Origin: Thermofilaceae archaeon
GTDB taxonomy: Archaea > Thermoproteota > Thermoprotei > Thermofilales > Thermofilaceae
Assembly: GCA_038731975.1 (NCBI GenBank)
Contig: JAVYQJ010000006.1
Coordinates: 1 to 64,000, forward strand
Direction of reading: 5' to 3'
Length of the DNA stretch: 64,000 nt
This document shows, in pieces, positions 28,171 to 43,851 of this stretch. Below the pieces are notes generated by a model. It was not told where the DNA came from and did not search any database. It was given only the letters and a program-made list of their open reading frames with translations. The first letter of the stretch is position 1. Every line of letters starts with the position of its first letter. A program made the translations under genes and the position numbers.

Positions 28171-28913
28171 AGGTGGCTCTTTACCCAGGAGAGGATTTCG
28201 CTCTCCACTTGCCTGCGCACGTGGTAGTCGTTGAAGACGTGCCCGCTCTTCACCTCTAGGAATTTCTTCTCCACTCTGAGCTTCTCGTAGAAGCGCTTAG
28301 CTTGGCTGATGGGGACCACCTCGTCGTCGGTCGCGTGGACGATGAGCGTAGGCGCTTTCACCTGCTCCGCTATATCCATCACGGTGAACCTGGCGTTCTC
28401 CATCGCGTTCTCCGCCCTCATCCTGAAGGGCCCCATGTACACGTAGCCTTCCTCCACCTTGAAGGGCACCCTACCGGTGAGCTCGGGCCAATCCAAGGCG
28501 GGGGAGAGGAGTACGAGGGCTGCAACATCGTCCCTGCCTGCCGACAGCTTGACTGCCACGCCGCCTCCCATGCTGAGGCCGATTACTGCGAATGATGAAC
28601 TGTCAACCTTCTCGAGGCTCTTCACGTACTTGACCGCGTTCTCCGCATCCTCGACCGCCATCGAGATTCTAAACTCCTCGAAGGGTAGCGGTGAATCGCC
28701 GTGGCAGCGGTAGTCGAAGCGTAGCACCGCGTAGCCTGCGCTGCAGAGCACACGCGCCAGATCCGTGTACAAACGTCCAGCCTCGCTCTTATTACCCGTG
28801 AAACCGTGCAAGAGCAAGACCGGCTTCGGCTTGACGGTGGTTGATGGAAGGTGGAGTACACCGGCCAACTTCAAACCAGCGCTCGGAACCCACACGAGTT
28901 CCTCGCTCCCCAC
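28167..28913 (-). CDS. Alpha/beta hydrolase, copy 1 (esterase/acyltransferase-like)
   Basis: This serine hydrolase of the alpha/beta fold has the oxyanion motif LLLHGFTGNK, nucleophile S114 in GLSMGG, acid Asp in HATDDEVVP and catalytic His in KSGHVFNDYH. The substrate is unknown; fatty-acyl esters or thioesters are plausible. GTG 28913 is chosen because the TATA (28936-28948) fits and because it aligns exactly with GTG 35047 of the second copy, giving the same S114. It lies divergently just upstream of the LuxE-LuxC genes. A 104-nt segment (28696-28799) is identical to the second copy although the rest is diverged. Confidence 0.85.
   Translation of the reverse strand: MGSEELVWVPSAGLKLAGVLHLPSTTVKPKPVLLLHGFTGNKSEAGRLYTDLARVLCSAGYAVLRFDYRCHGDSPLPFEEFRISMAVEDAENAVKYVKSLEKVDSSSFAVIGLSMGGGVAVKLSAGRDDVAALVLLSPALDWPELTGRVPFKVEEGYVYMGPFRMRAENAMENARFTVMDIAEQVKAPTLIVHATDDEVVPISQAKRFYEKLRVEKKFLEVKSGHVFNDYHVRRQVESEILSWVKSHL
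28696..28799. repeat. 104-nt identical block shared by the two hydrolase genes (copy A)
   Basis: This stretch, encoding the region after the oxyanion motif (GNKSEAGRLYTDLAR and following), is base-for-base identical to 34830-34933. The flanking parts of the genes differ clearly. Confidence 0.85.
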
Positions 28914-28935
28914 GCCGGCATCCCTCCCCATCTAG

Positions 28936-29149
28936 GTAAAAATGAGTATCGCTCTCTCCCGAGAGCCGTAGCGATTCCACGCGCGGATAGCTTCCGTCTT
29001 CCCGCAGATGATTGATCCCTATGAGCTGGAACTTCGGAGGCAGGCTCTCCTGATGATTGAAGCTGCAAAATGCCGGGCGCCTTAAAACGTAACCTGATCG
29101 GCTTCCCGCATGCATCGATCGAGTATTTCGTCAAAAGTCTAAATATAAT
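28936..29149. promoter_or_regulatory. Divergent promoter region between hydrolase copy 1 and luxE-like gene
   Basis: The minus-strand TATA is at 28936-28948 (CATTTTTACC), about 28 nt from GTG 28913. The plus-strand TATA is at 29140-29149 (TAAATATAAT), about 35 nt before ATG 29180. The 190 nt between them hold nothing I recognise; possible frames there look non-coding. Confidence 0.4.
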
Positions 29150-29179
29150 CCTTATCTGGCATAAGAGTGGAGCCAGGCT

Positions 29180-30466
29180 ATGGAAACGCTTCCCGCCTAC
29201 AGGACTTTAGAGGAGCGTAGCCGACAGAGCAGGTTCCTCAACGATCCGCACGTGAAGAGGCTGGTGGAGCTGGCCCGCGATAGAAGCCTTTTTGAAAAAT
29301 CCCCCGATTACCTAGCGAAGCTTAGGAGGGATCTGCTGAGGAGCTCGCTGGAGTTTTTCGCTCGGAACAGCGAGTTCTACGAGCGGCTGCTGAACGCGCA
29401 GGGCATCGACCCGAGGGCTGCTGAGGTTGAGGATCTCGCGAAGCTGGCTGTTCCATCCGACATGCTGAGAGGGGACGGTTTCTCTAGATTCCTGTTACCC
29501 AACAGGGATGAAGGAGGCTTCGTGTTTCGCTCGAGCGGCACGAGCGGGAAGGATCCGGTCAAGGTGTACAGGAGCCCGCTAGAGCTAGTCATGATGACGG
29601 TGGCCAACGCGAACCTCTTCGAGTACGTTTACGGCAGCGTTCTCGAGCCGAACAAAGGCTTAGCGCTCTTCCTGGCCGCTGAGGAGTTGAAGAATCACTT
29701 GAACTTCGTGGCTTTCGTTGACTTGGCCCTCCAATACAAGGGGATAAGGCTTCTCTACGGCATGGATCTAGTCCCGGACTCCAATGGGAGCCTGATGTGG
29801 AAGAGGCTCGTCCCGAACAGGGAGAGGATACTTCAGTTCATCAAGAGCAAAGACGAGCCCAAGCTCTTCTTCTCGGCTCCAGCGGGCGTCTACCTTATCA
29901 CCCAGCAGTTCGCCGGCTTAAGCCTCTTCAAGAAGCTGCTCTTCAAGCTGCTCGCCGGTGCACCACCGATCGACCTGGGCAGGGGAGGCGTCGTGGTCAC
30001 GGGCGGAGGATCGAAGGGCTTCCAGATTCCAGAGTACGATGTGATCGTTAAAGAGGCTAGGAAGATCTTTAGGGCTAGGGACGCGTCAACGAACGAGGAG
30101 GTTCCGGTCCCCTTCATGGACGTGCTCGGCATGACTGAAACGTTGACCGCGCTCCTCGATAAGTTCGGAGTGATGCACAAGATTCCACACCCGTTGCAGG
30201 AGGCCCTCCTTCTCGATCCGAAGACCTACAAGCTCATGGACGAGTTCAACAGGGATGGCCTCCTGGTGATCTTCGATCCGCTGGCCCTATCGTGGCTGGA
30301 GGTCTTCATCCCGGGCGACGTTGTGAGGCAGGTCCCCTCGGAGAGGTACTACGGCAGGGAGTTCATCTACGTAAGGAGACTCACGGCGGAGGAAGGATGG
30401 GACCTCCAGAGGGCTTGCGGAGGTACGTTGGAGGAGCTAATGTACAAGGGGGCTCCTACGCCATGA
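29180..30466 (+). CDS. LuxE-like acyl-protein synthetase
   Basis: This 428-residue member of the LuxE branch of the adenylate-forming (ANL) superfamily activates a fatty acid with ATP and passes the acyl group to a Cys for reduction by LuxC. It shows the phosphate loop RSSGTSGKDPVKV, the VVTGGGSKG segment and the LGMTETLTAL motif. C413 in LQRACGG near the C terminus sits where the acyl-accepting Cys of bacterial LuxE is found (inference). Its TGA overlaps the ATG of the LuxC-like gene (ATGA). Acyl donors in an archaeon, which normally makes isoprenoid lipids, are unclear. Confidence 0.8.
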   Translation: METLPAYRTLEERSRQSRFLNDPHVKRLVELARDRSLFEKSPDYLAKLRRDLLRSSLEFFARNSEFYERLLNAQGIDPRAAEVEDLAKLAVPSDMLRGDGFSRFLLPNRDEGGFVFRSSGTSGKDPVKVYRSPLELVMMTVANANLFEYVYGSVLEPNKGLALFLAAEELKNHLNFVAFVDLALQYKGIRLLYGMDLVPDSNGSLMWKRLVPNRERILQFIKSKDEPKLFFSAPAGVYLITQQFAGLSLFKKLLFKLLAGAPPIDLGRGGVVVTGGGSKGFQIPEYDVIVKEARKIFRARDASTNEEVPVPFMDVLGMTETLTALLDKFGVMHKIPHPLQEALLLDPKTYKLMDEFNRDGLLVIFDPLALSWLEVFIPGDVVRQVPSERYYGREFIYVRRLTAEEGWDLQRACGGTLEELMYKGAPTP

Positions 30467-31902
30467 GCAGGAGCATCAAACCACTGTATCCTGGGATTGA
30501 GGGAGGGGATCTCGAGCTCGTAAGCGCCGCAGGCGCAAGCGTTCTCGAGCCCAAAGCCGATTGGCCGTCCTCCACCCTGCGTGCCGCGGTAGGGTTGCAA
30601 TGGGAGCTTTCCAGCCTCCCCCTCGACGAGAGGTTGAAGGTCATCCAACTCCTCGGAGACTCTTGGAGGGAGAAGCTGGAAGAGGGCGGACTCCAGCGGT
30701 TAAAGGAGAATCTCGCGAAAGCCACGGGGTACAGCCCATCGCTGATAAAGCTCGAGATGCAGCTCGTGGGCGAAGTGCTCAACGCGAGTAATTTACGCAG
30801 GCTTCTCGACTCGACGGTCATCGGAGGGGCGAGAAGCCTGGAACAACCGGTAGAAGTCGCGCCCGGGGAGTACGTCAGGAACCTGCCAGCGGGCCCGGTC
30901 TTAATAGTAGGCTCCGGCAACTCCATCATACCACCGCTGATTCCAGCGACGATTTCGCTCGTTATCGGTAACTTCACAATCCTTCGACCATCCCTCGCCA
31001 ACTTCGAGGCGGTGGGAGAGGTTTTCCGCGAGCTCGATCAGCTGCCCGCGGACAACCCCTTCAGGCGCGCGCTGCTCGTCAGCTACTTCACACACGAGAG
31101 CAAGAATCTCGCATACCTCCTCGAGAAAGCGCCGCTGGGCGTTGTGAACTTCTGGGGTGGAGAGCCGGCGAGAACCCGGTTGGCGCGCGCCGTTTCAGCG
31201 AACCCCCATAGGCCGCGCTTCCACGTGAATGGACCCATGACGGGTTTCGCCATCATCGACTCCTCCAACGCGACGCCCGAGGTAGCGGAGAGGCTCGCAC
31301 TCGAAATGGTGCTGTACGACTAGCAGCTCTGCAGCAGCCCCACGCAAGCCGCGTTCTTGGGCTCCTTCTCGGAGCTAATGGAGTTCGCGAGCGTTCTGTG
31401 CGACGCTCTCGACAGGGTGGGCAGGGAATACCCTCTCAGCTTCGAGAGCATCCCCTACCCTCTGTTCGTGATGCGAAAGAGCCTGGAGCTGGCTGGCGCC
31501 CGGGTTTACGCGAGCAGCGATCCCGCTAACCCGTGGACTCTCGTGCTATCCGATAGGAGAACCTTAATGGACAGGGTGCCCCGCGATGCCCTTATCCCGC
31601 TTCACGCCAGGAGGCGGTTCCTCGAGCTGATCGCCGTCGAGACTCTCAGCGACGCCATCAGCCTTGTGAAGAGCCTCCCCGCGAACCCCGCTTACGCGGG
31701 CGTGGATAAGGTTCAGACTCTCGCCGTGGCGGTAAGCGAAGGCGCCCTCACGCAGATTATCAGTGCTCTACCCCTGCTGGGCGTCTACCGCGTCGTGCCG
31801 CTGGGAGAGAGCTACCTTCGAACCCCCGCCGAGCCGTACGACGGCTTCTACCTACCCTCCGTCTTCTCCTACACGGCGTACGTGAGGGTGAGGAGGAGTT
31901 GA
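30463..31902 (+). pseudogene. LuxC-like acyl-CoA/acyl-protein reductase interrupted by an in-frame TAG
   Basis: The frame starts at ATG 30463, overlapping the LuxE stop, and encodes a LuxC-family NADPH-dependent acyl reductase that makes long-chain aldehydes. Motifs are YVRNLPAGPVLIVGSGNSII and NFWGGEPARTRLAR. TAG 31321-31323 (codon 287) interrupts it. The same frame continues QLCSSPTQAAFLGSF to TGA 31902, giving 479 codons, a normal LuxC length. LuxC proteins usually read D-Q-Q-L-C here, so TAG replaces a CAG three codons before the catalytic Cys (codon 290). It is either a fresh nonsense mutation, an amber readthrough or an assembly error. The stop overlaps the epimerase start. Confidence 0.8.
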
Positions 31903-32894
31903 GGGTCCTCGTCACGGGGGCTTCGGGCTTCCTCGGCGGCCACTTGGTCGAGGAGCTCGTCAAGCTCGGTTACAAGGTGAGAGCCTTCGTCCGGAAAACG
32001 AGTGACACGAGGCTCCTCAGGCAGCTCGAGGTTGAGGTCGTAACAGGCGACATCACAGACCCCTCAACCCTCCCTCCAGCGATGAGAGGGGTGGACTGTG
32101 TAGTGCACTTAGCGGCCTACTACACCTTTTTCGGGAGGAAGGAGCTCTACGAGCTCGTCAACGTTAAGGGCACGGAGTGGACAGCCCGCGCAGCCCTCGA
32201 GAGCGGTGTGCGGCGCTTCATATACTGCAGCAGCACGGAGGCGATAGGGCCCGTCAAGAACCCGCCAGGCGACGAGAACAGCGAGCTCAACCCCCAGTTC
32301 GAGTACGGGAGGTCGAAGGCTAGGGCTGAGAAAGTCGTCAAAAGCCTCTCCGCGGCAGGGTTGGAGTACACGATCATAAGACCGACGGGCATCTACGGTC
32401 CGAGGAACGTAGACGACGTCGCCTACTGGTTCCTGACGAGCTACGCGAGGGGGGGCTTAGCGAGCAGGATAGCGGTGGGCTCAGGGCAGAACCTCGTACA
32501 GTTCACCCACGTCAAGGATGTGGTTCAGGGGTTCATCCTCGCCATGGAAAAAGAGGTGGCTGTGAACCAGGTTTACATCATAGGCGAGGACAGGTGGTAC
32601 ACTTACAACCAGGTTTACCAGATTCTGCACGAGCTGTGCGGTAAGGGTCCCCCCAGCTTTAGGCTACCGCCGGTGCTCGCCAAGCTTCTACTGCTTCCGC
32701 TGGAGCTCTACGACACTTTGACGGGCGAAGGGAACATCATGCACCGCAGAGCCCTCGTCGACGCCGTCACGAGCGATAGGGCTTACAGCGTCGAGAAGGC
32801 TAAGAGAGAGCTGGGGTTCAAGCCGAGGTACGACCTACGTAGCGGTCTGAGGGAGACGCTGGACTGGTACAGGCTGCACGGCTACCTGGATTGA
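31899..32894 (+). CDS. Extended SDR: NAD-dependent epimerase / 3-beta-HSD-like dehydrogenase
   Basis: This 331-residue extended short-chain dehydrogenase has the Rossmann glycine motif VTGASGFLGG, D-x-T-D at GDITDP, HLAAYYTFFG, the catalytic Ser/Tyr/Lys set (YCSSTEA, YGRSKARAE) and RPTGIYGPRN. The family includes sugar epimerases and 3-beta-hydroxy dehydrogenases acting on lipids (HpnA/OleD-like). TTG 31899 overlaps the LuxC-frame TGA, so luxE, luxC and this gene form one translationally coupled unit. A lipid-aldehyde or hydroxyl substrate is suggested only by that context. Pieces of a second copy lie at 34019-34260. Confidence 0.82.
   Translation: MRVLVTGASGFLGGHLVEELVKLGYKVRAFVRKTSDTRLLRQLEVEVVTGDITDPSTLPPAMRGVDCVVHLAAYYTFFGRKELYELVNVKGTEWTARAALESGVRRFIYCSSTEAIGPVKNPPGDENSELNPQFEYGRSKARAEKVVKSLSAAGLEYTIIRPTGIYGPRNVDDVAYWFLTSYARGGLASRIAVGSGQNLVQFTHVKDVVQGFILAMEKEVAVNQVYIIGEDRWYTYNQVYQILHELCGKGPPSFRLPPVLAKLLLLPLELYDTLTGEGNIMHRRALVDAVTSDRAYSVEKAKRELGFKPRYDLRSGLRETLDWYRLHGYLD
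32841..32887. repeat. 47-nt 3'-end block of the epimerase gene repeated downstream (copy A)
   Basis: The last codons of the epimerase are identical to 34193-34239 in the remnant copy. The 18 bases after them (32888-32905) appear as their reverse complement after the second copy. Confidence 0.85.
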
Positions 32895-32934
32895 AAGAGC
32901 TCGCACGCAAAACGCGCCAACATGTTCCATATAA

Positions 32935-33010
32935 GCTAGGCTAGAGGTGTTCCTTAATCCACGCTAGGATCTCTTTCTCCACCTGCCTGCGCACATGGTA
33001 GTCGTTGAAG
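32935..33010. repeat. 76-nt exact direct repeat, copy A (hydrolase 3' end)
   Basis: This is identical to 34301-34376. Both copies encode the C-terminal codons of the hydrolase on the minus strand (FNDYHVRRQVEKEILAWIK). Confidence 0.9.
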
Positions 33011-33050
33011 GTGTAGCCCCCCACGCTTAAGCCAACGAGAGCAAAGCGCG
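32941..33050 (-). pseudogene. Remnant of an alpha/beta hydrolase (third copy)
   Basis: The minus strand keeps the last 23 codons of the hydrolase (NDYHVRRQVEKEILAWIKEHL), fused after a deletion to the nucleophile-elbow region (RFALVGLSVGG). By comparison with the copy at 34307, about 318 nt are missing; TGAAG occurs at both break positions. The frame stays open to 33186, but the part beyond 33050 has no hydrolase similarity. It lies convergently after the intact epimerase, exactly as the intact hydrolase lies after the epimerase remnant. Confidence 0.8.
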
Positions 33051-33277
33051 CAATGAGCTGTAGGCGTGCTTCTCCCCATCGAACCGTTGGTGTAAATAAC
33101 GTTGCAGTACCGAGCGCAGGGTGCAAGGGCAGTCGAGCGCGTGGAACGCGTGGGAGAACCCCTCGAGAGCGCTTAGTACTTCTCAAGTGAGAGCCTGCAG
33201 CAGAACCTAAGCCCGGTTCCCTACAGGCGCCCCATTTCCCACTCTTCCCTAACCCAGCATTAGCAACACTTATTAGC

Positions 33278-33304
33278 TACTTTATGGTGGGAATTTGAGG
33301 GTGA
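33278..33304 (+). promoter_or_regulatory. TATA-like element and Shine-Dalgarno of vapB
   Basis: TACTTTATGG (33278-33287) lies 25 nt before ATG 33308. GAGGGTGAC (33296-33304) is a strong Shine-Dalgarno just before the start, which is uncommon among first genes in this window. Confidence 0.5.
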
Positions 33305-33307
33305 CAT

Positions 33308-33538
33308 ATGGGTAGTTATGTCACGGTGTCCACGAAGGTTAGAAGGGAGCTTAAGGAGGAGGCGGAGAGGCTGGGCATCAACGTATCTATGGTGCTGAGG
33401 AAGGCTCTCGAGGAGGAGGTGAGGAAGAGGCGGCAGCAGAAGCTACTCGAGAAGCTGGAGGCTTTCCGCGACGTCCTGGACAGGATCGAGGTGGAGGAGC
33501 TGGTTAGGCTGGTCCGCGAGGATCGCGAGAGGAGGTAG
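33308..33538 (+). CDS. VapB-type antitoxin
   Basis: The 76-residue protein begins with a short strand (YVTVSTKVRRELKEEAERLG) and a helix-turn-helix (INVSMVLRKALEEEV). This matches a ribbon-helix-helix DNA-binding head followed by a long charged toxin-binding helix (RRQQKLLEKLEAFRDVLDRIEVEELV). It neutralises the PIN-domain toxin encoded 2 nt downstream and should repress its own promoter. A GGAGGT sequence overlapping its stop serves the vapC start. Confidence 0.85.
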   Translation: MGSYVTVSTKVRRELKEEAERLGINVSMVLRKALEEEVRKRRQQKLLEKLEAFRDVLDRIEVEELVRLVREDRERR

Positions 33539-33540
33539 GC

Positions 33541-33966
33541 TTGCCGAAGTGCAAGTACCTCTTCGACGCTTCCTCGCTCGTCCATGCTCTGAAGCTCAAG
33601 CGCCTTGACCTCCTGAGCGAGGGCTGTATCCAGTGGCTTACGGTCTACGAGGTTTTGAACGCTGTCTGGAAGGAGGCGCACCTGCTGGGTAAGCTCGACA
33701 GGAAGAGGGCTGTTGAGTTTGTCGACGCTCTAGCCGAGTTCCTTGGTACTCTGAGCATCCTAGACCCGCGCGGCTGCGAGAAGGAGGCTGTCGAAACGGC
33801 GCTAGAGTTCGGTGTGACGGTGTACGATGCCTCATACGTGGTACTAGCCAGGAAGCACGGGCTAGTGCTCGTCACCGAAGATAGGGAGCTTAGAAGGAAG
33901 GTAGGCCGTGCAGTCGAGGTGGTAAGCCTGGAGGAGCTACTCGGGCAGGCCTACCGCGCGCGGTAG
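33541..33966 (+). CDS. VapC-type PIN-domain toxin ribonuclease
   Basis: This 141-residue PIN-domain RNase has the conserved acidic residues: the first Asp in YLFDASSLVHAL, a Glu in LTVYEVLNAVWKE, the Asp in VYDASYVVLARK and the Asp in LVTEDRELRRK. Such toxins cut tRNA or rRNA when released from VapB. TTG 33541 is the start, with a GGAGGT Shine-Dalgarno at 33531-33536 overlapping the vapB stop. The pair sits between the hydrolase remnant and the epimerase remnant, inside a decayed duplication. Confidence 0.88.
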   Translation: MPKCKYLFDASSLVHALKLKRLDLLSEGCIQWLTVYEVLNAVWKEAHLLGKLDRKRAVEFVDALAEFLGTLSILDPRGCEKEAVETALEFGVTVYDASYVVLARKHGLVLVTEDRELRRKVGRAVEVVSLEELLGQAYRAR

Positions 33967-34018
33967 AAGCTCGAAGCAGAGGGCTAACGCTACGTGTTCG
34001 TAGATCCGCACGCCCCCT

Positions 34019-34260
34019 TCAACTCGAGTGGCACGGAGATCGTCGTTGGCGACGTCACGGATCTACTAACCCTCACCACCACGATGGGTGGAGGACTGCG
34101 TAGTGAATTTGGTGGTTTACTACACCCTCTTTCTGGAGGAAGGAGCTCTACGAGCTCGTCAACGTTAAGGGAACCGAGTGGACAGCCCGCGCAGCGGTCT
34201 GAGGGAGACGCTGGACTGGTACAGGCTGCACGGCTACCTTTGCGAGCTCTTTCAATCCAG
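34019..34260 (+). pseudogene. Remnant of a duplicated epimerase/SDR gene
   Basis: The segment resembles the epimerase gene at 31990-32194 (eroded to about 34130, nearly identical at 34134-34193). It then jumps directly to the gene's 3' end (34193-34239, identical to 32841-32887). About 647 nt are deleted, with AGC at both break points. Several frame changes make it non-functional. After the 3' end, 18 bases (34241-34258) are the reverse complement of the matching bases after the intact gene, a tiny inversion around a GAGCTC palindrome. Confidence 0.85.
34193..34239. repeat. 47-nt epimerase 3'-end block (copy B)
   Basis: Identical to 32841-32887. It marks the right part of the epimerase remnant. 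Confidence 0.85.
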
Positions 34261-34300
34261 CACGCTAAACTAGTAAAAATAAGGCCGCCTCGAGTAAACT

Positions 34301-34376
34301 GCTAGGCTAGAGGTGTTCCTTAATCCACGCTAGGATCTCTTTCTCCACCTGCCTGCGCACATGGTAGTCGTTGAAG
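34301..34376. repeat. 76-nt exact direct repeat, copy B (hydrolase 3' end)
   Basis: Identical to 32935-33010. Here it belongs to an intact hydrolase gene. Confidence 0.9.
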
Positions 34377-35047
34377 ACGTGCCCGCCCTTCACCTCCACA
34401 AACTTCTTCTTAACTTTCAGCGCCTCGAAAGACTGTTTCGCGCGGTCTAGGGGTACTGCCTCGTCGTCCACCGCGTGGATTTGTAGAGTGGGTGCGCGCA
34501 CCCGCTCAGCCTGGTCGGGCGTCATGAGCATCCCCTCGAAGCCCTCCGGCCGCATCCTCAGAGCACCAAAGTACACGAACTCGCCCTCCTGCCTCCTCTC
34601 CAAGCGGCGCCTCTCGAAGGGCGCGAAGGGGCTTGTGGAGAGGAGGACTAGCGCCGCCACGTCGTCCCTATCCAAGGAGATTCGGGCTGCTATGAAGCCC
34701 CCCATACTCAAGCCGACGAGAGCGAAGCGCGACGCGTCCACCCCCTCGAGGCTCTTCACGTACTTGACCGCGTTCTCCGCATCTTCGACCGCCATCGAGA
34801 TTCTGAACTCTTCGAAGGGTAGGGGGGAGTCGCCGTGGCAGCGGTAGTCGAAGCGTAGCACCGCGTAGCCTGCGCTGCAGAGCACACGCGCCAGATCCGT
34901 GTACAAACGTCCAGCCTCGCTCTTATTACCCGTAAAACCGTGCAAAAGCAAGACCGGCTTCGGCTTCTCAACGCCGCTCGGAAGGTGCAGGACACCAGCC
35001 AGATTGAAGCCAGCACTCGGAACCCAGACTAGCTTTTCACCGTTCAC
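34307..35047 (-). CDS. Alpha/beta hydrolase, copy 2
   Basis: The 246-residue paralogue of the gene at 28167 has LLLHGFTGNK, nucleophile S114 in GLSMGG, the Asp in HAVDDEAVP and the His in KGGHVFNDYH. The cap region differs strongly from copy 1 (FERRRLERRQEGEFV against DWPELTGRV), suggesting another substrate. Yet a central 104-nt block and the extreme 3' end are nearly identical, as expected from gene conversion or recent duplication. GTG 35047 is leaderless, with an AT-rich element near 35066-35076. It follows the epimerase remnant convergently. Confidence 0.85.
   Translation of the reverse strand: MNGEKLVWVPSAGFNLAGVLHLPSGVEKPKPVLLLHGFTGNKSEAGRLYTDLARVLCSAGYAVLRFDYRCHGDSPLPFEEFRISMAVEDAENAVKYVKSLEGVDASRFALVGLSMGGFIAARISLDRDDVAALVLLSTSPFAPFERRRLERRQEGEFVYFGALRMRPEGFEGMLMTPDQAERVRAPTLQIHAVDDEAVPLDRAKQSFEALKVKKKFVEVKGGHVFNDYHVRRQVEKEILAWIKEHL
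34830..34933. repeat. 104-nt identical block shared by the two hydrolase genes (copy B)
   Basis: Identical to 28696-28799 within otherwise diverged paralogues. Confidence 0.85.
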
Positions 35048-35142
35048 AGGAGCGGTTGCCAGAACTCGATAAAATGGTTACCGTTACTCCTGCGACGCGG
35101 ATGCAGCTTCAAGGGATGTTAAACGGGGACGCGTTGGTCCGG

Positions 35143-36567
35143 CTACCGCTTCTCCTCTCCACCTTTCTGCTCCCTCTCACTCGGGGGTACGACGAAGATC
35201 TCGTCTCCCACGATCATGAAGGCGAGGCGGCGCTTCTCGATCCAAGGCTTTTCGCCGAGGTACTCCTTGAACGTGTCGTTGCTGAGGATAAGAGCCCCCT
35301 GCTTCTCCGCGATGCTGATGATGAAGGCGTCCGCAGAAGTCCTGGCTGGAGCCTCGTAGAGAACGCCCCGCGCGCGCAGGCTGTCCAGCGTGAACGGATC
35401 ATCGATGTGGTGCTTCAGCGAGGCATCAACCACCACGAGAGGGGTGTAACCTTTCTCTCGAGCCCAGTTAACCGCCAAGAGGATGTTCCTCGCCCGCGGC
35501 CTCCCCAAGCTGTCGCGAGCAGCGTAAGCCACGTTCGAACCATCGATCACAACCACCCAGCCGGAGATCCCGGGCACCCCAGCTCCAGCGCCCAGCTTCG
35601 GCGCCTCGACTCTCGCGCGCCCCACCTCCTCCACCTGCGCTTCAACCCGGCGGGGTGCGAGCTCTGCAGACCTCAACCTCCCCTCCAGCAGCCTCAACTG
35701 ATCCTCCAGCCTCGAAGCCCTCCTCGAGGCCCTCACCGCAACGGTTAGCGAGATCAGCGTGAGCAAGGCAAGTAAGGCTAGAGCCACCGGGAAGTACTCC
35801 AGCCTCATCCTAGAGATCAAGCTAGAAAATTCGTTTTTCAAGGCAGAAACATCTCTCTCTATGTTAGAGACTCTTCTCTCTATGTTGGAGACTCCGCTGG
35901 AAAGATCTCTTTCCAGCCTGTCGATTCTTACGGTAACGTTAGAGAGGCCCCGCTCCAGGCTGGAAACTTTTGTTGAAATGCTGGAGAGCTCCTCCCTCAT
36001 GTTGCCCAGCACCACGGGAGTTAGCGGCTCACCCGCGTAGGCGTCCAGCGAAGTACCAACCGCTCTGATCATCAAGTTACCCCTAAGCTTCTCATACAGA
36101 ATATTGCCGCCCACGATGCCAGCTAGGTAAGATCTTCCCGCCGGAGCATCTGTGTCGACGCGCATGTATGGGTGTATTGCACCTTCCTTTTCAAGTTGGA
36201 TAACTATGAAAAACGGTGTGAAATTAATCATTAAGTCTGGTATATCTACCGTAAGCCATATATTTTGTTGGAGAAAAAGTTCCGCTCTATAAACGAAATA
36301 TGTTCTTAGGTTAGGATCCCAGACCTCAATACGTAAGACCCCATTTCCCCATGCATCAAGGTATACTCTTATAGCCGTCAGAACCCAGGGAAGGCTAGGC
36401 GGTGTAAATTCGACCGCGTAGACAACCCCTCTCGTGAAGTCATAATAAGTATCTGGCTCCCCGTCATCGTACTTCAGCTCGATCGCGGGGTAGGCGGAAG
36501 ACTCTAAGGTCGCGGACAGAATGAGGATAATTACTGCGAAGACAGGAAACGCGCGCGACTTGACCAC
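35143..36567 (-). CDS. Receptor-like membrane protein with a cytoplasmic Zc3h12a/NYN RNase domain
   Basis: The 474-residue protein is built like a receptor. It has an N-terminal signal anchor (FPVFAVIILILSA), a beta-sandwich ectodomain (ELKYDDGEPDTYYDF, YAVEFTPPSLPW), and a coiled coil of regular heptads (residues about 190-255). A membrane helix (VALALLALLTLISLTVAV) and a second short coil follow. Inside the cell is an MCPIP1/Zc3h12a-type NYN RNase domain: D342 in VVIDGSNVAYA, then RNILLAVNWAREKGY, TSADAFI and ILSNDTFKEY. The catalytic acidic residues are present. GTG 36567 is chosen from the TATA at 36588-36599; the upstream extension overlaps GH20. The ectodomain is AT-richer than its surroundings. 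Confidence 0.82.
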   Translation of the reverse strand: MVKSRAFPVFAVIILILSATLESSAYPAIELKYDDGEPDTYYDFTRGVVYAVEFTPPSLPWVLTAIRVYLDAWGNGVLRIEVWDPNLRTYFVYRAELFLQQNIWLTVDIPDLMINFTPFFIVIQLEKEGAIHPYMRVDTDAPAGRSYLAGIVGGNILYEKLRGNLMIRAVGTSLDAYAGEPLTPVVLGNMREELSSISTKVSSLERGLSNVTVRIDRLERDLSSGVSNIERRVSNIERDVSALKNEFSSLISRMRLEYFPVALALLALLTLISLTVAVRASRRASRLEDQLRLLEGRLRSAELAPRRVEAQVEEVGRARVEAPKLGAGAGVPGISGWVVVIDGSNVAYAARDSLGRPRARNILLAVNWAREKGYTPLVVVDASLKHHIDDPFTLDSLRARGVLYEAPARTSADAFIISIAEKQGALILSNDTFKEYLGEKPWIEKRRLAFMIVGDEIFVVPPSEREQKGGEEKR

Positions 36568-36587
36568 GCTTTCAAGTGCTCGGGCTG

Positions 36588-36599
36588 AAAATAAAAACT
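36588..36599 (-). promoter_or_regulatory. TATA-like element of the receptor-RNase gene
   Basis: The minus-strand AGTTTTTATTTT is centred about 26 nt before GTG 36567. Confidence 0.5.
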
Positions 36600-36659
36600 T
36601 AGCTATCGATTCTACACTTTGATGTTTTTTAACTCTCTTCAATGGATGATGGAAACTGT

Positions 36660-38312
36660 TTAGGGGCTTTGGAGGCGCTCTGCCCCAACCTTCTTCTCCA
36701 GCTCCAGTACTGCTGCAGCACTGTAGAAGCGCGTGTAGACTCTGGCGAGGTTTGCGGGTTTGCGCTCGCTCAGCCACAGGTCGGCGTAGAGGCTCGCTAA
36801 GCCCAGGAAGTCCGCCACCGTTGCTCTACCCTCCACCTTCCGCAACCCGACCTCTAGGCAGCGCTTGATGAACTCCAAGTCGCGGGGCAGGCTGACCCTC
36901 CCGGCCATCTCGAGCGCCTTCCTCCACTCCTCGTACACCGGCAGGTTGTGCACCTCCTCAGTGGGTGAGAAGAGCACCCGCTTGATGAAGTTCGCTACCG
37001 CACCCTTACCGAAGCTCTTCCTCACCTCGAGGATTTCGCAAGGTTCACCGGTCAAGGCCAGCCACTTCTCCTCCCAGTTGCCGGAGCCTTCGGCGTACTC
37101 CATCGCCGCCAGGATGAGCGGGTAGAGGAAGGAGTAGAGGCACTCCTCCCCGTCGTCCCCCCACGCCGTGACCATGAACCCCTTGACCCCCTCCTCTCGG
37201 GCGGCCTGAAGGAAGTTTTTCACGTTGGTGAGGGCCGTCTCGAAGTCGGGGTAGTACTTGTTCCAGTTCCACAAGCCGGGGCAGGCGATCTGCTCGTAAC
37301 CCCTCTCCTTGAAGAGCCTGATCTTCTCCCTGAAGTACTCGACGGTGCCGGGGGTGTAGTCCCAGTTGGCTATCAAGCACTCCCTCCACGCCGGGTTCTC
37401 CAGGATCGCCTTCCAGAGCTCCCTCTCCGTCTCCCGCAGGTACATTCCGGCGATCATGTCCCCCCAGATGATCGGGGTCTTGCCCTTCCCCTTGGCGATC
37501 TCGATGAGCCTGGAGTGGTGCTCCGCGTAGAGGCGCGGCCCCTCGAACTTGAGGAGCTTGTCGAGGCTCCTCCCCCTGCCCAGCGCCCACGTCTCGTCGC
37601 CCCCGATGTGGATGTACTTCGAATCGGTCTTGCTGGCCGCCTCCTCGAGCAACTCCTCTGCGAACCTCCTCGCCTCAGGGTCGCTGACGTTCAGGCAGCC
37701 CTCCTCGGGGCGATGCCACTCGCTGAACTTCCAGTACTTCGGCAGGGTTAGGATCCACTCCATGTGACCGCAAAGCTCGAGGGATGGGAAGACCTCGATC
37801 CCCAGCCTCTTCCCGTACTCGACGATCTCCCTCCACTCCTCGTTGGTGTACCTGCCCCTCTTGAAACCGATGTCGGGGTACTTGTCCCACGGGAAGAGGT
37901 CCTCAACGTAGATCGCGAGGTAGTTGTACTTGAGGAGGAAGAGCCACCTCAGCAGCTTCTTCAGCTCCCCCACGGTGGCAACGCCGCCGCGGGCGACGTC
38001 CAGGTGGAAGCCCCTGAAGCTGAAGCGGAGCTGCTCGTGCACTTCGACGTCTGGGATGCGGCAGCAACCCCCCTGCAGAACGAGCTGTATCAGGGTGGCC
38101 CGCCAGATGGCTGGATCCCCCCAAGCCTCGACGTACCCCTCCCTCACGTTGATCCCGCAGCCCGGTCTCTCAACGACTTTGATCTCCCACGATCCACGCG
38201 GTATACCAAACTCCTCCATCAGGAAACCGTCCATGTTCGAGAATCCATCGAACTCGAACCATCTACCCCTGTACTCCAGCTTCACCGGTTCGGGCACAAC
38301 CAGAGGCTCCAT
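36660..38312 (-). CDS. GH20-family beta-N-acetylhexosaminidase
   Basis: This 550-residue family 20 glycosidase removes terminal GlcNAc or GalNAc by substrate-assisted catalysis. An N-terminal alpha/beta domain (to about 95) is followed by the barrel entry FRGFHLDVARGG. The catalytic pair D239-E240 lies in IHIGGDETW, and conserved Trp residues (IANWDYTPG, VTAWGDDGEE) line the pocket. There is no signal peptide, so it acts in the cytoplasm on imported oligosaccharides. It is the main sign that GlcNAc-containing glycans are used, next to beta-mannosidase elsewhere in the window. Confidence 0.9.
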   Translation of the reverse strand: MEPLVVPEPVKLEYRGRWFEFDGFSNMDGFLMEEFGIPRGSWEIKVVERPGCGINVREGYVEAWGDPAIWRATLIQLVLQGGCCRIPDVEVHEQLRFSFRGFHLDVARGGVATVGELKKLLRWLFLLKYNYLAIYVEDLFPWDKYPDIGFKRGRYTNEEWREIVEYGKRLGIEVFPSLELCGHMEWILTLPKYWKFSEWHRPEEGCLNVSDPEARRFAEELLEEAASKTDSKYIHIGGDETWALGRGRSLDKLLKFEGPRLYAEHHSRLIEIAKGKGKTPIIWGDMIAGMYLRETERELWKAILENPAWRECLIANWDYTPGTVEYFREKIRLFKERGYEQIACPGLWNWNKYYPDFETALTNVKNFLQAAREEGVKGFMVTAWGDDGEECLYSFLYPLILAAMEYAEGSGNWEEKWLALTGEPCEILEVRKSFGKGAVANFIKRVLFSPTEEVHNLPVYEEWRKALEMAGRVSLPRDLEFIKRCLEVGLRKVEGRATVADFLGLASLYADLWLSERKPANLARVYTRFYSAAAVLELEKKVGAERLQSP

Positions 38313-38417
38313 CGCTCTGCTGAGGATAGGGTCCTACAAAACGGTTGCTCTCAGCGCAACGGCGGGCTCGGTGCGGTCAGGAGGAGAGTGTGAATGGGGT
38401 TGATCCTTGAGGGGCGG

Positions 38418-39086
38418 CTACTCCAGCCTCATGGCCCAGAGCAGACCCCCCATCAGGTGCTTCTGGAACCACTCCTGCCTCCACGTCCAAGTGAAGTGGC
38501 CGAAGGCGGTGTAGAAGACCCTGCCCCGACCGAAGTCGTGGCACCAGGCCAGCGCGTAGTCGTTGTCGGGCCTCGTCCCCTTGCTCAAGTCCACCGAGCT
38601 GTTGTCGAGGCTGATCAGCACGTTCGTCCTGCTCCTACTCCACTCCTTGAACGTGTAAACCTCCTCGAGCGTTTCGAAGGTTTGGGGCAGGTGCCTCGTC
38701 GACGGGTGGTTGGGGTTCTCCACCCTAGCCCTGATAACCTGCGTCCACGGGTGCGCGAGGAAGTAGCCGCCAAGCATTTCGCCGTACTCCTTGAACGCGT
38801 AGAAGGTGTCAGCGGCGTTGTGGACTCCCACGAAGCCACCCCCGCTCCTGACGAAGTCTATCAGCGCGCGTTTCTGCTCATCGCTGAGCGGCAGCTCCCC
38901 CGTCGTGAGGAAGACGATACCCGCGTACTCCCTCAACCGCTCAGGGTCGAGGTCGGCCGGCTCCTCCGTCGCGAAAACCTCGAACCTTCCGCTCCGCTCC
39001 CCCAGCTTGACTAGAACCTCAACCGCCGTAGGGATGTAGCTGTGCCTAAAACCCGCCGCATGCGTAAACACGAGTACCCTTCTCAC
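38418..39086 (-). CDS. ThuA-like domain protein (second copy type)
   Basis: This 222-residue ThuA-fold protein has VLVFTHAAGFRHSYIP at the start, YAGIVFLTTGELPLSDEQKRAL, GGGFVGVHNAADTFY, and RVFYTAFGHFTWTW near the end. It belongs to the branch common in glycan-degrading bacteria and differs from the gene at 6040. A role in altering oxidised or keto sugars is possible (inference). GTG 39086 is chosen over TTG 39092 because the AT-rich element near 39104-39113 is 24 nt upstream. It is downstream of, and co-oriented with, the ATP-cone gene. Confidence 0.85.
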   Translation of the reverse strand: MRRVLVFTHAAGFRHSYIPTAVEVLVKLGERSGRFEVFATEEPADLDPERLREYAGIVFLTTGELPLSDEQKRALIDFVRSGGGFVGVHNAADTFYAFKEYGEMLGGYFLAHPWTQVIRARVENPNHPSTRHLPQTFETLEEVYTFKEWSRSRTNVLISLDNSSVDLSKGTRPDNDYALAWCHDFGRGRVFYTAFGHFTWTWRQEWFQKHLMGGLLWAMRLE

Positions 39087-39149
39087 GCGCAATCAGCGGC
39101 TCCTCCCGTAAAAATGCGTAACGCGCCCCACTTGGGAGGCTGATGGAGC

Positions 39150-39713
39150 TCATTCTATCGGCTTTTTAAGCTCGTACGGCTTCCAACCGAGCTTCTCGCG
39201 GAACTGGTTGATCAACTCGACCGACTTCAGCTTCTCCTCTTTCGGCATCTGCCTCGACTTCAGGACGCCCATGAATAGGGCGTAGAGCCTCGCGTTGATC
39301 GTAGCCTTCGAAACGCCGAACTGCAGGTCCTCCTCGAGCTCCCTCAAAATGCCGGCCACCTCCTCGCTGTGGGACAACCCCTTCGGACCGATGTCTTTGA
39401 CGCTTCGGCCCAGGTAGAGGTGCCCCTTCTCGACCACTAGGGCTTTCCCGTCCTCGAAGGTGATCCTGCCCTTCGCTACACGGTCGTAAAAGGTCCAGGC
39501 CTCGTAGGCGTGCGGAGCTAGCTCCCTAAGCCTGATTAGGACGTAGCGGCGTATCTCATCCGTGCTCATGCCGTCGTACGCCCTCTGCTCGACCTCCCTG
39601 GCGATCTCCTGTGCAACCTCTACCGGTGCACCGGCCGCAACGCACGCCTCGTAAATTTTCTGAGGGTTGAAGTCCTCCAGTGCCCCACTCCTCTTCCTAA
39701 CCCTTTTCGCCAT
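39150..39713 (-). CDS. ATP-cone domain protein
   Basis: The N-terminal part (VRKRSGALEDFNPQKIYEACVAAGAP... to RAKGRITFEDG, residues 1-90) is an ATP-cone, the nucleotide-sensing domain found in ribonucleotide reductase and NrdR. A C-terminal helical part follows (HLYLGRSVKDIGPKGLSHSEEV). There is no reductase domain or zinc ribbon. It probably senses ATP/dATP and regulates something not visible here. ATG 39713 is leaderless, with the TATA at 39735-39743. Confidence 0.75.
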   Translation of the reverse strand: MAKRVRKRSGALEDFNPQKIYEACVAAGAPVEVAQEIAREVEQRAYDGMSTDEIRRYVLIRLRELAPHAYEAWTFYDRVAKGRITFEDGKALVVEKGHLYLGRSVKDIGPKGLSHSEEVAGILRELEEDLQFGVSKATINARLYALFMGVLKSRQMPKEEKLKSVELINQFREKLGWKPYELKKPIE

Positions 39714-39734
39714 ACGTATACAGCGCGCGGGTGG

Positions 39735-39743
39735 TTAAAATGG
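39735..39743 (-). promoter_or_regulatory. TATA element of the ATP-cone gene
   Basis: The minus-strand CCATTTTAA is centred about 25 nt before ATG 39713. Confidence 0.5.
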
Positions 39744-39751
39744 AAAGCGGG

Positions 39752-40489
39752 CTATGCAGATATCAGCTCGTAGACCTTGTCCTCCAGCTTCTGGAACTCG
39801 GGGGAGCGCCTATCTCTCGGCCTGGGAAGGTCGACCTCGATGATCCCGCGGATCTTCGCTGGCCTCGGTGTGAGGATGACGACGCGGTCGGCCATGAAGA
39901 TGGCCTCGTCGACGCTGTGGGTCACCATGATTATGGCCCGGACGGTTGTGACCTTTAGGGTCCAAAGGTCGAGGATCTCGGTCCTCAGCGACTCGGCGGT
40001 GAGCGGGTCGAGGTTGGAGAAGGGCTCGTCCATCAGCAGGATCTTCGGCTCTACGGCTAGCGCGCGGGCAATGTTCACCCTCTGCTTCATCCCCCCGCTC
40101 AGCTCCCTCGGGTAGAAGTCCTCGAAGGCCTGCAAACCGGTTAGGGAGAGGTACTTGTGCGCTCTCTCTCGTGCCTCCCTCCAGCTCATCCCGTTCGCCC
40201 TCAGCGGGAGAGCGACGTTGTCGAGGACCGTGAGCCAGGGGAGGAGCGTGGGGAACTGGAAGATGAAGCCCACCCTAGGCGTTTTATCGTGAATGACGAT
40301 CCTCCCGCCGTCCGGCTTCTCGACGCCGGCAATGATCCTCAGGAGGGTTGTCTTCCCGCAACCCGAGGGGCCGAGGATCGCGATGAACTCCTCCCCCACC
40401 TCCAGGCTTATGCCATCGAGCACTTGGACTACGTTCCCACCCTGCCTGAACGATTTCCTGACGTCCTCGATTGAGAGCACGGGGATCAC
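39752..40489 (-). CDS. ABC transporter ATP-binding protein (nitrate/sulfonate/taurine type)
   Basis: This 245-residue ABC ATPase powers the adjacent permease. It has Walker A GPSGCGKTT, the Q-loop, signature LSGGMKQRVNIARAL, Walker B ILLMDEPFSNLD and the H-loop VTHSVDEAI. It resembles TauB/SsuB/NrtD ATPases, whose C-terminal AAA-associated domain is often fused; here that domain is encoded separately at 42051. Its start overlaps the stop of the permease gene by 4 nt. No substrate-binding protein is in the window. Confidence 0.88.
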   Translation of the reverse strand: MIPVLSIEDVRKSFRQGGNVVQVLDGISLEVGEEFIAILGPSGCGKTTLLRIIAGVEKPDGGRIVIHDKTPRVGFIFQFPTLLPWLTVLDNVALPLRANGMSWREARERAHKYLSLTGLQAFEDFYPRELSGGMKQRVNIARALAVEPKILLMDEPFSNLDPLTAESLRTEILDLWTLKVTTVRAIIMVTHSVDEAIFMADRVVILTPRPAKIRGIIEVDLPRPRDRRSPEFQKLEDKVYELISA

Positions 40490-42000
40490 TCCACACCACC
40501 GCCGTACCGGCTCTCAACCCACTCGAAAACCCTCCTCCAAAAAGTCTTGTTCACCGCTACGATCACGAGAGAGAGGACGAGTGCAGAGAGCGCCACCCCG
40601 GCGTAGTCCCCGGCGTAGGCAGCCCTGTTGAGCGCTGCTCCAGCGCCACCCAGGTCGATGACACGGTCGCCCAGCTCCACGTACTCAGCCGCTACCGCGG
40701 AGTTCCACGCGCCGCCCCAGGCGCTGAGGGCTCCTGCCGCGAGGGAGGGCATGAGCATTGGAGCGAATATCATCCTCATGAACCACCAGCCCCGGATTCG
40801 GTAAACCTTTGCCATCTCGTCGAGCTCCCTCCTGATCGAGCTTACCCCGTAGATGAGCAGATTGAAGAAGAGGTACCACGCCGAACCCTGGAGGAAGACG
40901 ATCGCAGAGACGATGTGGGGGCCGAGAGGGCTCCCCACAGCGATGCCAGCCAAGAGCGGCCACCAGATCACAGCGGGTATGGAGGCGAGAACTTCACCGG
41001 CGAGAATGACCAGCTGGCCAGTCCACGCGCTGGCGTAGACTGCGTACGCGGCCAGCAGCGAAATCGCTACGCCGAGCGATACGATGGCTGCCACTCGGGC
41101 GAGCGAGACCGGGATCCCGAGCACAACGTCGAATACGTCCGAAGGAACGCCATGTGCCGGAGCGCTCGAGGCCGAAGCGCCCGCTACCGCGTGCAGGAGT
41201 AGGGCGAGCAGCACTGCTGCAACCGCTAGGCCTGCGTAACGCGGCAGGCTCACCCCTACCCTCAGGCTCATGATCGCGCTGCTCAAAGCCGTCCAGAGCT
41301 TCGAGACGGCGCTGCGGACAACTGCGTACGCGGCCGGTACGCCGGGGAGCTGGTAGCCTAGGATCCCCGCGCAGGCGGGGTTCCAGAGGAGCAGGTAGGT
41401 GGCCAGTATGACGGCTATGAGCGTGGCTACGCCGGCCTGGAAGCTCAGGGCGTCCCCTCGCGCGAACGCCTCCATGATGAACGTCCCGAGCCCGAGCAGC
41501 CTGTGCTCCTCCTCACCCATCGAGATGACCTCGGAGGAGGTTAGGAAGAACCAGCCGCCGGCCCACGAAACCAGGCTGTTCGCGATCAGCGAGTTCCTCG
41601 CGGCTGGAACGCAGATGTAGAAGAACGTTGCCGCCCTCCCCAAGCCGTAGACCTTCGCCATCTCGAAGAGGCCCGGCTCAAGGCTCTTAACGGACGTGTA
41701 GACGCCGAAGATCATGTTCCAGACCTGGCTAGTGACGATGAGGAACACAGCTGCAGCCTCCTGCCCCAGCCCGGGGGGTAGGGTGGCCACGAAGAAGGCT
41801 AGAGCCGCGGGGAAGAAGCCGAGGATGGGGATCGACTGCAGCACGTCCAGGACCGGTAGGAGAACCCTTTCGACACCCCTGCTGCGCGCCATCCATACGC
41901 CCACGGTGAGGGAGATCAGCAGGGAGATCAAGTAGGCTAAGAACATCCTGAACGTGCTGAGCGCCGCGCACAGCAGCAGGTAGAGCACAGTCAGCGCCAC
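40486..42000 (-). CDS. Tandem ABC transporter permease (two BPD-type domains)
   Basis: The 504-residue protein is a duplicated importer permease with two sets of about six helices and two EAA-type loops (FEMAKVYGLGRAATFFYICVP and LDEMAKVYRIRGWWFMRMIF). It forms the whole membrane channel in one chain. Substrate could be nitrate, sulfonates, cyanate-like ions or a vitamin; the sequence does not say. GTG 42000 is leaderless from a TATA shared with the divergent AAA-associated-domain gene, with starts 51 nt apart. The ATPase gene follows with a 4-nt overlap. Confidence 0.85.
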   Translation of the reverse strand: MALTVLYLLLCAALSTFRMFLAYLISLLISLTVGVWMARSRGVERVLLPVLDVLQSIPILGFFPAALAFFVATLPPGLGQEAAAVFLIVTSQVWNMIFGVYTSVKSLEPGLFEMAKVYGLGRAATFFYICVPAARNSLIANSLVSWAGGWFFLTSSEVISMGEEEHRLLGLGTFIMEAFARGDALSFQAGVATLIAVILATYLLLWNPACAGILGYQLPGVPAAYAVVRSAVSKLWTALSSAIMSLRVGVSLPRYAGLAVAAVLLALLLHAVAGASASSAPAHGVPSDVFDVVLGIPVSLARVAAIVSLGVAISLLAAYAVYASAWTGQLVILAGEVLASIPAVIWWPLLAGIAVGSPLGPHIVSAIVFLQGSAWYLFFNLLIYGVSSIRRELDEMAKVYRIRGWWFMRMIFAPMLMPSLAAGALSAWGGAWNSAVAAEYVELGDRVIDLGGAGAALNRAAYAGDYAGVALSALVLSLVIVAVNKTFWRRVFEWVESRYGGGVE

Positions 42001-42018
42001 ATCGGCTTTCCAGCAACC

Positions 42019-42028
42019 TTTAAAAATG
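42019..42028. promoter_or_regulatory. Bidirectional TATA element (42000 minus / 42051 plus)
   Basis: TTTAAAAATG lies midway between GTG 42000 (minus) and GTG 42051 (plus), about 25 nt from each. A GGAGG run at 42041-42045 precedes the plus-strand start but may lie upstream of the transcript. Confidence 0.6.
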
Positions 42029-42050
42029 TCACCTATATTCAGGAGGCAAG

Positions 42051-42611
42051 GTGGTGGAGGGGGTGGATCAGGGCGATAGCAGTAGACGGGGGAGGCAAGT
42101 CCTCCCCCCTGACGTGACCCCCGATCACGTGTTGGGCCTCGTGGAGCTGCTTCACAGTCTAGGCAGCGGGATCGACTCCATGTACGTGGGTGATGCCATA
42201 AGCGAAGACGTGAGCATGCTCCCCCACGCGATCGACGTCGCGGAAGCTCTGGGCTTGATCGCGCAGAGGGAGGGCAACCTTGAACTCACCGATAGGGGGA
42301 GGCAGGTTGCTAGTGGCAACCCGAAGACCGTCAAGAGGCTCCTCCAGGAGGTGGTTCTCCGGCTCGAGCCCTTCAACGAGATCGTAGAGAAGTTGAGAGA
42401 GAAGAGCGAAATGCCAGTGGAGGAATTCGAAGAAATCCTCGAGAAAGTGTACCCAACCCAGCTGGAGCAGGCTAAGCATAACATCCTCGTGTGGGGAGCC
42501 TTCCTCGGGCTCTTCAAGATGAGCGAGGACGACGAGAGGATTGTAGCAATCCACATACCCAGAGCGAGGGAAACGCAGGGTAGGGCTAGAGGAGGCGAGC
42601 ATCAGGCTTAA
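42051..42611 (+). CDS. AAA-associated domain protein (stand-alone regulator of the ABC system)
   Basis: This 186-residue protein matches the AAA-associated C-terminal domain found fused to nitrate/sulfonate ABC ATPases. It has the winged-helix-like part VTPDHVLGLVELLHSLGSG...LPHAIDVAEALGLI, the segment REGNLELTDRGRQVASG, and the helical end FNEIVEKLREK...LEQAKHNILVWGAFLGLF. Here it is a separate gene divergent from the permease. It probably binds the ATPase or regulates its operon. GTG 42051 or 42054 is the start. Its end overlaps the nreA stop by 26 nt. Confidence 0.78.
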   Translation: MVEGVDQGDSSRRGRQVLPPDVTPDHVLGLVELLHSLGSGIDSMYVGDAISEDVSMLPHAIDVAEALGLIAQREGNLELTDRGRQVASGNPKTVKRLLQEVVLRLEPFNEIVEKLREKSEMPVEEFEEILEKVYPTQLEQAKHNILVWGAFLGLFKMSEDDERIVAIHIPRARETQGRARGGEHQA

Positions 42612-43821
42612 GGAGCCTCTTCAGTAGTCTAGACTTCCCGACAACGATGTCTACCCTCGTTTCCAACCTTCTGGCCAGCTCTGAGAGCGCGTGCTCGACG
42701 CTGTCGAGCTTGACGGGCGGCGAGGAGAGAGCGGCTCTCACGCTCTCCCTGATCTGCCACGAGCCGACGGGCGCGTAGTAGGCCGGCGTGACTTCCCTGA
42801 TCGCGACGACCGTCGCTTGCCGCCCAACCCTGTGCAGGTGCTCGAGCACCGGAAGCCTTATCGCGTGGTAGCCGCCGTCCACCTCCGGGACCCTCGCCCT
42901 CCCGTCGTGGAGCTCGTAGTTGACGGCGATGTACGGCTCCCCCGCCTTCACCCAAACGCTACGGGGCAGCCAGATCTCGATCATCTCGAAGCTCCACGAC
43001 CCCGGCGCCAGAACGATGGCGTAGCGGTTCCCGATGTACTCGCTGTAGTGCAGCACCAGATTCGGGTACTCGGGCATCCGCTTCACCTCGCGCAGGAGGA
43101 GGTCGCCCAGCATCTTATCGACGGCCGTTATAGCCCACCTGGTCGGCACGATCCTCCTGGCGGGCAGCTGACCGAGCAAGCCGAGGCTCAGCAGCCTAGT
43201 CAGGTAGTAGTTGTCGAAACCGGCCCTGTAGAGCTCCGCGACCGCCTCCCTCGCCTTGACACCGTAATCCTCGACCAGCTGGTCAACCTTTCTGGGCACA
43301 GCCGGGTTGCCGACGATTCTAATGTCCTCCAGCCAACCCCTAAGACCGGTCGGGGTGATCAAGCCGTCGAACGTCAGCCGAGGGCTCGGCGGCTTGACGA
43401 AACGGTACTCGGCGTCGACGGGCTTGACGGAGAGGGCGGCCTCCCTCGTCGCTTCGAGCAGCTTGTTCCCGCCGCGCGCCATCTTAACCCTGACTGTGAA
43501 GCTCGAGTAGACCGTCGAGGCCCGCAGCGCGATGATGTCCTCGAGGGTCAGCCTACCCCACCAGGCCCTGTAATCCTCGTAGCGCTTGGCGCCCTCACCG
43601 ACCTCGGGGACAGCCACCGGGCCCAGCCTGACGCTCGGGTACCCAAACTCGCCGACGATGACGGAGGGCGGGGTAGCCCCGTCGAGCTCTCTCTTCGTGA
43701 GCATTGGGGATGCCTTCACGCTCTCGATGTAGCGCTTCAGGATGGGGCACACGGGCCTCCCGCAGAGCCTGGCCGCTCCTTTGCACCTCGCGCAGAGGGT
43801 CGCGTCGAGCTTCGAAGGCAC
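42586..43821 (-). CDS. nreA: NreA-type DNA repair protein
   Basis: This 411-residue protein of the archaeal Nre family acts with PCNA and NurA-like factors in repair of DNA damage such as mitomycin adducts in haloarchaea. It starts with a four-Cys zinc finger (LCARCKGAARLCGRPVCP), then FGYPSVRLGPV, LEDIIALR, and GNPAVPRKVDQLVEDYG. NreA proteins usually end in a PCNA-binding motif; the C terminus here (KSRLLKRLLKPDARLL) has no clear one. GTG 43821 is leaderless from a shared TATA. Confidence 0.88.
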   Translation of the reverse strand: MPSKLDATLCARCKGAARLCGRPVCPILKRYIESVKASPMLTKRELDGATPPSVIVGEFGYPSVRLGPVAVPEVGEGAKRYEDYRAWWGRLTLEDIIALRASTVYSSFTVRVKMARGGNKLLEATREAALSVKPVDAEYRFVKPPSPRLTFDGLITPTGLRGWLEDIRIVGNPAVPRKVDQLVEDYGVKAREAVAELYRAGFDNYYLTRLLSLGLLGQLPARRIVPTRWAITAVDKMLGDLLLREVKRMPEYPNLVLHYSEYIGNRYAIVLAPGSWSFEMIEIWLPRSVWVKAGEPYIAVNYELHDGRARVPEVDGGYHAIRLPVLEHLHRVGRQATVVAIREVTPAYYAPVGSWQIRESVRAALSSPPVKLDSVEHALSELARRLETRVDIVVGKSRLLKRLLKPDARLL

Positions 43822-43844
43822 CTGGGAAAGGTGGGGGCTAAGCT

Positions 43845-43851
43845 TTTATCT
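43845..43851. promoter_or_regulatory. Bidirectional TATA element (43821 minus / 43872 plus)
   Basis: CTTTTAT lies midway between GTG 43821 (nreA) and GTG 43872 (SpeD paralogue). Starts are 51 nt apart and both look leaderless. Confidence 0.6.

Follow-up and report, generated by a model that had tools for sequence, protein, structure and literature searches.

The 64,000-nucleotide stretch of Thermofilaceae archaeon DNA analysed here, referred to below as the window, carries on its minus strand (positions 35143–36567) a gene for what looks like a chimeric single-pass membrane NYN RNase. The open reading frame is real, as the earlier note had it: its frame begins with GTG and runs uninterrupted for 474 codons, and its translation is a protein of 474 amino acids. 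A longer in-frame ORF reaching 36777 is also present. Two features favour the GTG at 36567 as the start: a T-rich element resembling a TATA box, TTTTTATTTT, occupies positions −30 to −21 relative to it (36588–36597, minus strand), and a good signal-peptide-like segment begins there. TTTTTATTTT is the probable promoter of a leaderless archaeal transcript beginning at this GTG.

The protein opens with a predicted signal peptide (residues 1–25; 36493–36567, on the minus strand like all features of the gene), which has a hydropathy of 1.96 at residues 1–19 and a probable cleavage site after SSA. It is followed by an AT-rich segment encoding an extracellular β-sandwich (residues 26–180; 36028–36492), delineated by its AF2 model and its homologues, and by an extracellular coiled coil, or stalk (residues 186–254; 35806–36012), which draws coiled-coil-only matches, SlaB among them, and whose heptad pattern over residues 184–254 was reached by none of 5000 composition shuffles. 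Hydropathy reveals two hydrophobic segments, residues 1–25 and 254–282, the second peaking at residues 260–278 (2.48) and corresponding to a transmembrane helix (residues 258–281; 35725–35796) that is also helical in the model. The segment immediately after this helix is Arg-rich, so the C-terminus should lie inside according to the positive-inside rule, and the topology is probably single-pass, N-out/C-in. A basic juxtamembrane/cytoplasmic helix (residues 282–319, RASRRASRLEDQ...; 35611–35724), which resembles the paralogue described below, then leads through a low-confidence Gly/Ala linker (residues 320–334; 35566–35610) to the NYN (PF11977) RNase domain (residues 336–466; 35170–35562). In the AF2 model of residues 253–474 the helix is continuous from 256 to 319, and about 15 residues with pLDDT below 50 separate it from the NYN domain. 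The receptor-like layout claimed in the earlier note, namely ectodomain, coiled coil, membrane helix and cytoplasmic domain, finds support in the sequence, the profile match and the predicted structure.

The assignment of the cytoplasmic domain to the NYN family is secure. A Pfam profile search matches PF11977 to residues 338–468 (E 3.8e-23, 82.4 bits against a cut-off of 23), the gene scores 85.7 with this family in the genome search, and the best PDB match by sequence is MCPIP1/Regnase-1 (ZC3H12A; 3v32, 1.1e-9). AF2 models the domain with a pLDDT of about 95, and Foldseek with this model returns ZC3H12C, Regnase-1, ZC3H12B and KHNYN as top matches (best E 1.7e-10, TMt 0.70), 7ndh and 5h9v being matched at E of about 2e-10 and TMt of about 0.70. 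Five residues, D342, N345, D413, N430 and D431, are invariant in an alignment of 11 archaeal and bacterial NYN sequences. Alignment with the PDB sequence places D342, D413, D431 and E435 in line with D141, D226, D244 and D248 of Regnase-1, in human numbering counted from D141. The Zc3h12a/NYN domain proposed earlier is therefore borne out by profile, MCPIP1 match and model: the predicted structure has the PIN/NYN fold, and the acidic site is kept in all 11 aligned sequences. The motifs quoted at the time (IDGSN, ILLAVNWAREKGY, SADAFI and LSNDTF) are all present and the numbering of D342 is correct. In the same PDB sequence alignment P407 and R409 occupy the columns of Regnase-1 P212 and R214; the paralogue is without these P/R dimer-interface residues. 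The PIN domain of Regnase-1 alone is insufficient for activity and requires head-to-tail dimerisation, which is abolished by P212A or R214A at the dimer interface (PMC4772114). Fold, acidic site and P212/R214 columns are thus common to Regnase-1/MCPIP1 and the window protein, which differs in spanning the membrane, in bearing an ectodomain and in having no CCCH zinc finger. There is not one cysteine among its 474 residues, so the CCCH finger of ZC3H12 proteins is absent and the protein is a member of PF11977 rather than a Regnase orthologue. It very probably has RNase activity.

PF11977 is rare in the phylum, where it was found in 4 of 398 genomes, that of the window included, with one further genome coming from a separate search. 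Seven NYN proteins of the phylum were compared: the window protein, its paralogue, those of G163, G198, G392 and G775, and the multi-TM protein of G405, whose record is titled Thermoproteota and which we presume on that basis to belong to the window's phylum. Six of the seven pass the hydropathy threshold for a membrane segment ahead of the NYN domain, and in the seventh, from G198, a hydrophobic stretch at the corresponding position comes close to the threshold. No membrane segment of this kind occurs in the seven NYN proteins checked outside the phylum, of which six come from Methanobacteriota-type genomes, several of them closely related, and one from a Bacteroidota. Tethering to the membrane is therefore a common theme of NYN proteins in the phylum. 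The short TM-NYN genes (G163, G198, G392 and G775, with G405 as the multi-TM case) resemble the window gene in placing an N-terminal membrane segment before PF11977, but they are without signal peptide, ectodomain and extracellular stalk. The neighbours of these short genes are kept between related genomes in two further families (loci L035, L036, L037 and L064), so the genes look like stable housekeeping genes and are candidates for a membrane-bound archaeal housekeeping RNase. The G405 protein (L105, 5472–7367; 631 aa) is a multi-pass membrane protein with a long coiled coil and a C-terminal NYN domain.

Modelled by AF2 from 14 sequences, the ectodomain forms a confident β-sandwich (pLDDT 84.0, pTM 0.81). 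Searches of Pfam and NCBIfam gave nothing significant for it, and a sequence search of the PDB yielded no relative. Its best Foldseek match is weak (E 1.5e-3, TMq 0.58): a crystal structure of Cwp84, a protein associated with the S-layer, that covers its protease and lectin-like domains. Viral capsid rows in this fold search combined low TM-scores with large rmsd, and we discarded them as generic β-sandwich matches. Of 300 genomes of the window's phylum, 8 contain relatives of the ectodomain; these are concentrated in one genus, whose genomes carry several copies each, one of them with as many as 12 matching places. A second archaeal phylum has relatives in 15 of the 295 genomes searched. Those examined consist of a signal peptide and one or more beta domains, mostly extended in the window's phylum by a coiled coil and a C-terminal TM, and no NYN domain occurs among them. 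By sequence comparison, the ectodomain is a member of an unnamed archaeal surface module that is often built like SlaB, the S-layer stalk of Sulfolobales, a 475-aa protein composed of beta domain, coiled coil and TM (PMC10903991). The window protein has the same order of extracellular β-sandwich, coiled coil and TM and a similar length; however, SlaB stops after the TM, where the window protein continues into a cytoplasmic RNase, and the single beta domain of the latter is of a different family. The SlaB equivalog model NF040788 gives 16.5 bits against a cut-off of 700, with the match confined to the coiled coil. Nearly all matches from PHROGs, NCBIfam and PADLOC also fall in the coiled coil and were rejected as compositional. 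In the second archaeal phylum (L109–L117, L119 and L121) the family includes two-part surface proteins of about 410–460 aa; at L119 and L121, as read by eye, one relative is followed by a clostripain-type-peptidase-like segment and one by a PKD-like region.

The two halves of the gene also differ in composition. The ectodomain-coding part (codons 26–180) has a GC of 0.473 and a GC3 of 0.484, values reached by none of 375 windows taken from the remaining long ORFs of the 64-kb stretch (GC3 mean 0.836, sd 0.057, minimum 0.626; minimum GC 0.546), and the AT-richness relative to its surroundings that had been remarked on earlier is thereby confirmed. Codons for the TM, the cytoplasmic helix and the NYN domain are native-like (GC3 0.77–0.79), and ectodomain relatives in other genera sit in loci of about 45–53% GC. 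The genome holds a second NYN gene (G000:C4, 253 aa), which encodes TM, coil and NYN without an ectodomain. Its NYN domain is 40% identical to that of the window gene, and the two group at 92/88 in a 14-row tree, whose branches are long. Over the part that starts at the TM (LxVAVxAxRRASR) the two proteins align with a score of 59 against a block-shuffled mean of 34, with 0.13% of shuffles reaching 59. The GC3 break and the resemblance to the paralogue from the TM onward speak for a resident membrane NYN protein having gained the extracellular half, and the window gene looks like a recent chimera; the paralogue may instead have lost an ectodomain. A DNA-pattern scan of genome contigs for full-length relatives brought up no orthologue in which the whole architecture is present. 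Ectodomain fragments were misplaced in the joint alignment of full-length proteins, which was left out of modelling. The paralogue was not found at the matching place in the congeners compared, and a TnpB-like gene (IS605-type ORFB, by eye; L042, 11912–13291) lies about 0.8 kb from it, near the contig end.

The neighbourhood of the window gene is conserved in the congener G002, in which the epimerase, hydrolase, GH20, ThuA, ATP-cone and ABC genes stand in the window's order. The hydrolase and GH20 genes are about 75 bp apart in G002 versus 1612 bp in the window, where the interval holds the NYN gene, and G002 has no NYN gene. The G001 contig stops at GH20 and G003 differs downstream, and PF11977 was found in no other genome among 150 relatives. 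The window gene is apparently lineage-specific and recently inserted, as far as these comparisons indicate. The 3′ ends of the epimerase and hydrolase genes are duplicated (window 32838–33022 and 34190–34388, 94–98% identical, spacing about 1.36 kb), and the duplication brackets an RHH antitoxin-like gene (33308–33538) and a PIN toxin-like gene (33541–33966); a 20-nt perfect inverted pair lies at 32886–32905/34241–34260. The same-genus loci (L046, L047 and window 28000–46000) differ strongly in GC, with about 49.5% in G002, 69% in G003 and about 60% in the window. PADLOC gave nothing significant (best E 0.052, in the coiled coil only), no relative was found in the phages searched or in the viral contigs searched with the NYN pair, and the plasmids searched gave coiled-coil matches to Borreliella Bdr, one weak NYN-region match at 1e-5 and nothing else. 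With metabolic, syntenic neighbours and these search results, the suggestion of phage defence in the earlier note is not supported, and a defence-island reading was rejected because of the synteny, the locus being a conserved metabolic neighbourhood with one toxin–antitoxin pair.

From these results we propose that the most likely function, and a moderately probable one, is that of a membrane-tethered RNase docked to the envelope. The single-pass N-out/C-in protein would keep an NYN endoribonuclease of the Regnase type on the cytoplasmic side of the membrane, while its stalk, a coiled coil that is probably homodimeric or homotrimeric, would bear the extracellular β-sandwich. This sandwich may dock to a surface glycan or to the S-layer, as the weak fold resemblance and the layout hint. 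Such a protein may have originated when the signal peptide, β-sandwich and stalk of a surface protein like SlaB were fused to a TM-coil-NYN protein already resident in the genome, a sister copy of which would survive elsewhere in it. Clustering through the stalk would bring NYN domains together, as the activity of Regnase-1 requires, and the main output would be that RNA near the membrane is cleaved in a metal-dependent manner, with mRNAs under translation at the translocon as one example. Since stalk oligomerisation would raise the local concentration of NYN domains, constitutive and regulated activity are both plausible.

In the main rival reading, the same architecture would serve an outside-in receptor, functionally IRE1-like, in which a ligand or surface stress acting on the β-sandwich alters the packing or oligomer state of the stalk and thereby switches the NYN RNase. 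A folded ectodomain, a stalk, one TM and a continuous helix (256–319) leading to the RNase speak for such a device, the nearest characterised NYN depends on oligomerisation for activity (PMC4772114), and the ectodomain was apparently joined to a protein that has an ectodomain-free paralogue. However, the ectodomain relatives resemble ordinary surface or S-layer-type proteins, and the low-confidence 15-residue linker between helix and NYN weakens rigid signal transfer. Moreover, membrane NYN proteins without ectodomain occur in the same genome and phylum, so that tethering alone is the commoner state, and we consider switching by an outside signal rather unlikely. An antiviral or abortive-infection sensor, which would detect virus attachment or envelope damage and cleave host RNA, is very unlikely. 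The gene is lineage-specific and apparently inserted recently, the toxin–antitoxin pair about 1.2 kb away is also inserted, and NYN RNases do exist as CRISPR-associated effectors (PMC11346440), but the epimerase, hydrolase, GH20, ThuA and ABC transporter neighbours are syntenic in the congener, PADLOC is without a significant match, and related membrane NYN genes elsewhere have stable housekeeping surroundings. We regard as most improbable an accidental fusion or assembly artefact without selected function, which the single genome, its fragmented 87-contig assembly and the strong composition break within the gene might suggest: both flanks are native and in congener order, which makes a misassembled chimera unlikely, and the 474-codon frame is intact, all NYN site residues are retained, the topology is coherent across the join and a promoter-like element is positioned at the start codon.

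For the envelope-docked, membrane-tethered RNase favoured here, two known systems offer functional analogues only. IRE1 combines a non-cytoplasmic sensor-like domain and one TM with a cytoplasmic RNase activated by oligomerisation; this layout alone is compatible with that of the window protein, whereas its luminal domain is unrelated to the window ectodomain and it uses its own kinase and KEN RNase. In RNase Y, a membrane-anchored coiled coil leads to a cytoplasmic endoRNase, a layout shared by the window protein, but its catalytic domain is KH/HD and it is without an ectodomain. Our literature search, which covered open-access papers, found no description of an NYN RNase within a membrane protein bearing an extracellular domain, and the membrane-tethered NYN RNases of Thermoproteota apparently form a wider undescribed class. 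It is possible, if doubtful, that the addition of an ectodomain to this class has produced an archaeal transmembrane receptor with Regnase-type NYN RNA cleavage as its direct intracellular output. If active, the window protein would be an archaeal membrane-bound endoribonuclease that occupies a position comparable to that of RNase Y in bacteria. It might then also link the cell surface to RNA cleavage within one protein, in a layout comparable to that of IRE1. Because membrane-tethered NYN proteins recur in several families of the phylum, the location of archaeal RNA decay can be tested directly.
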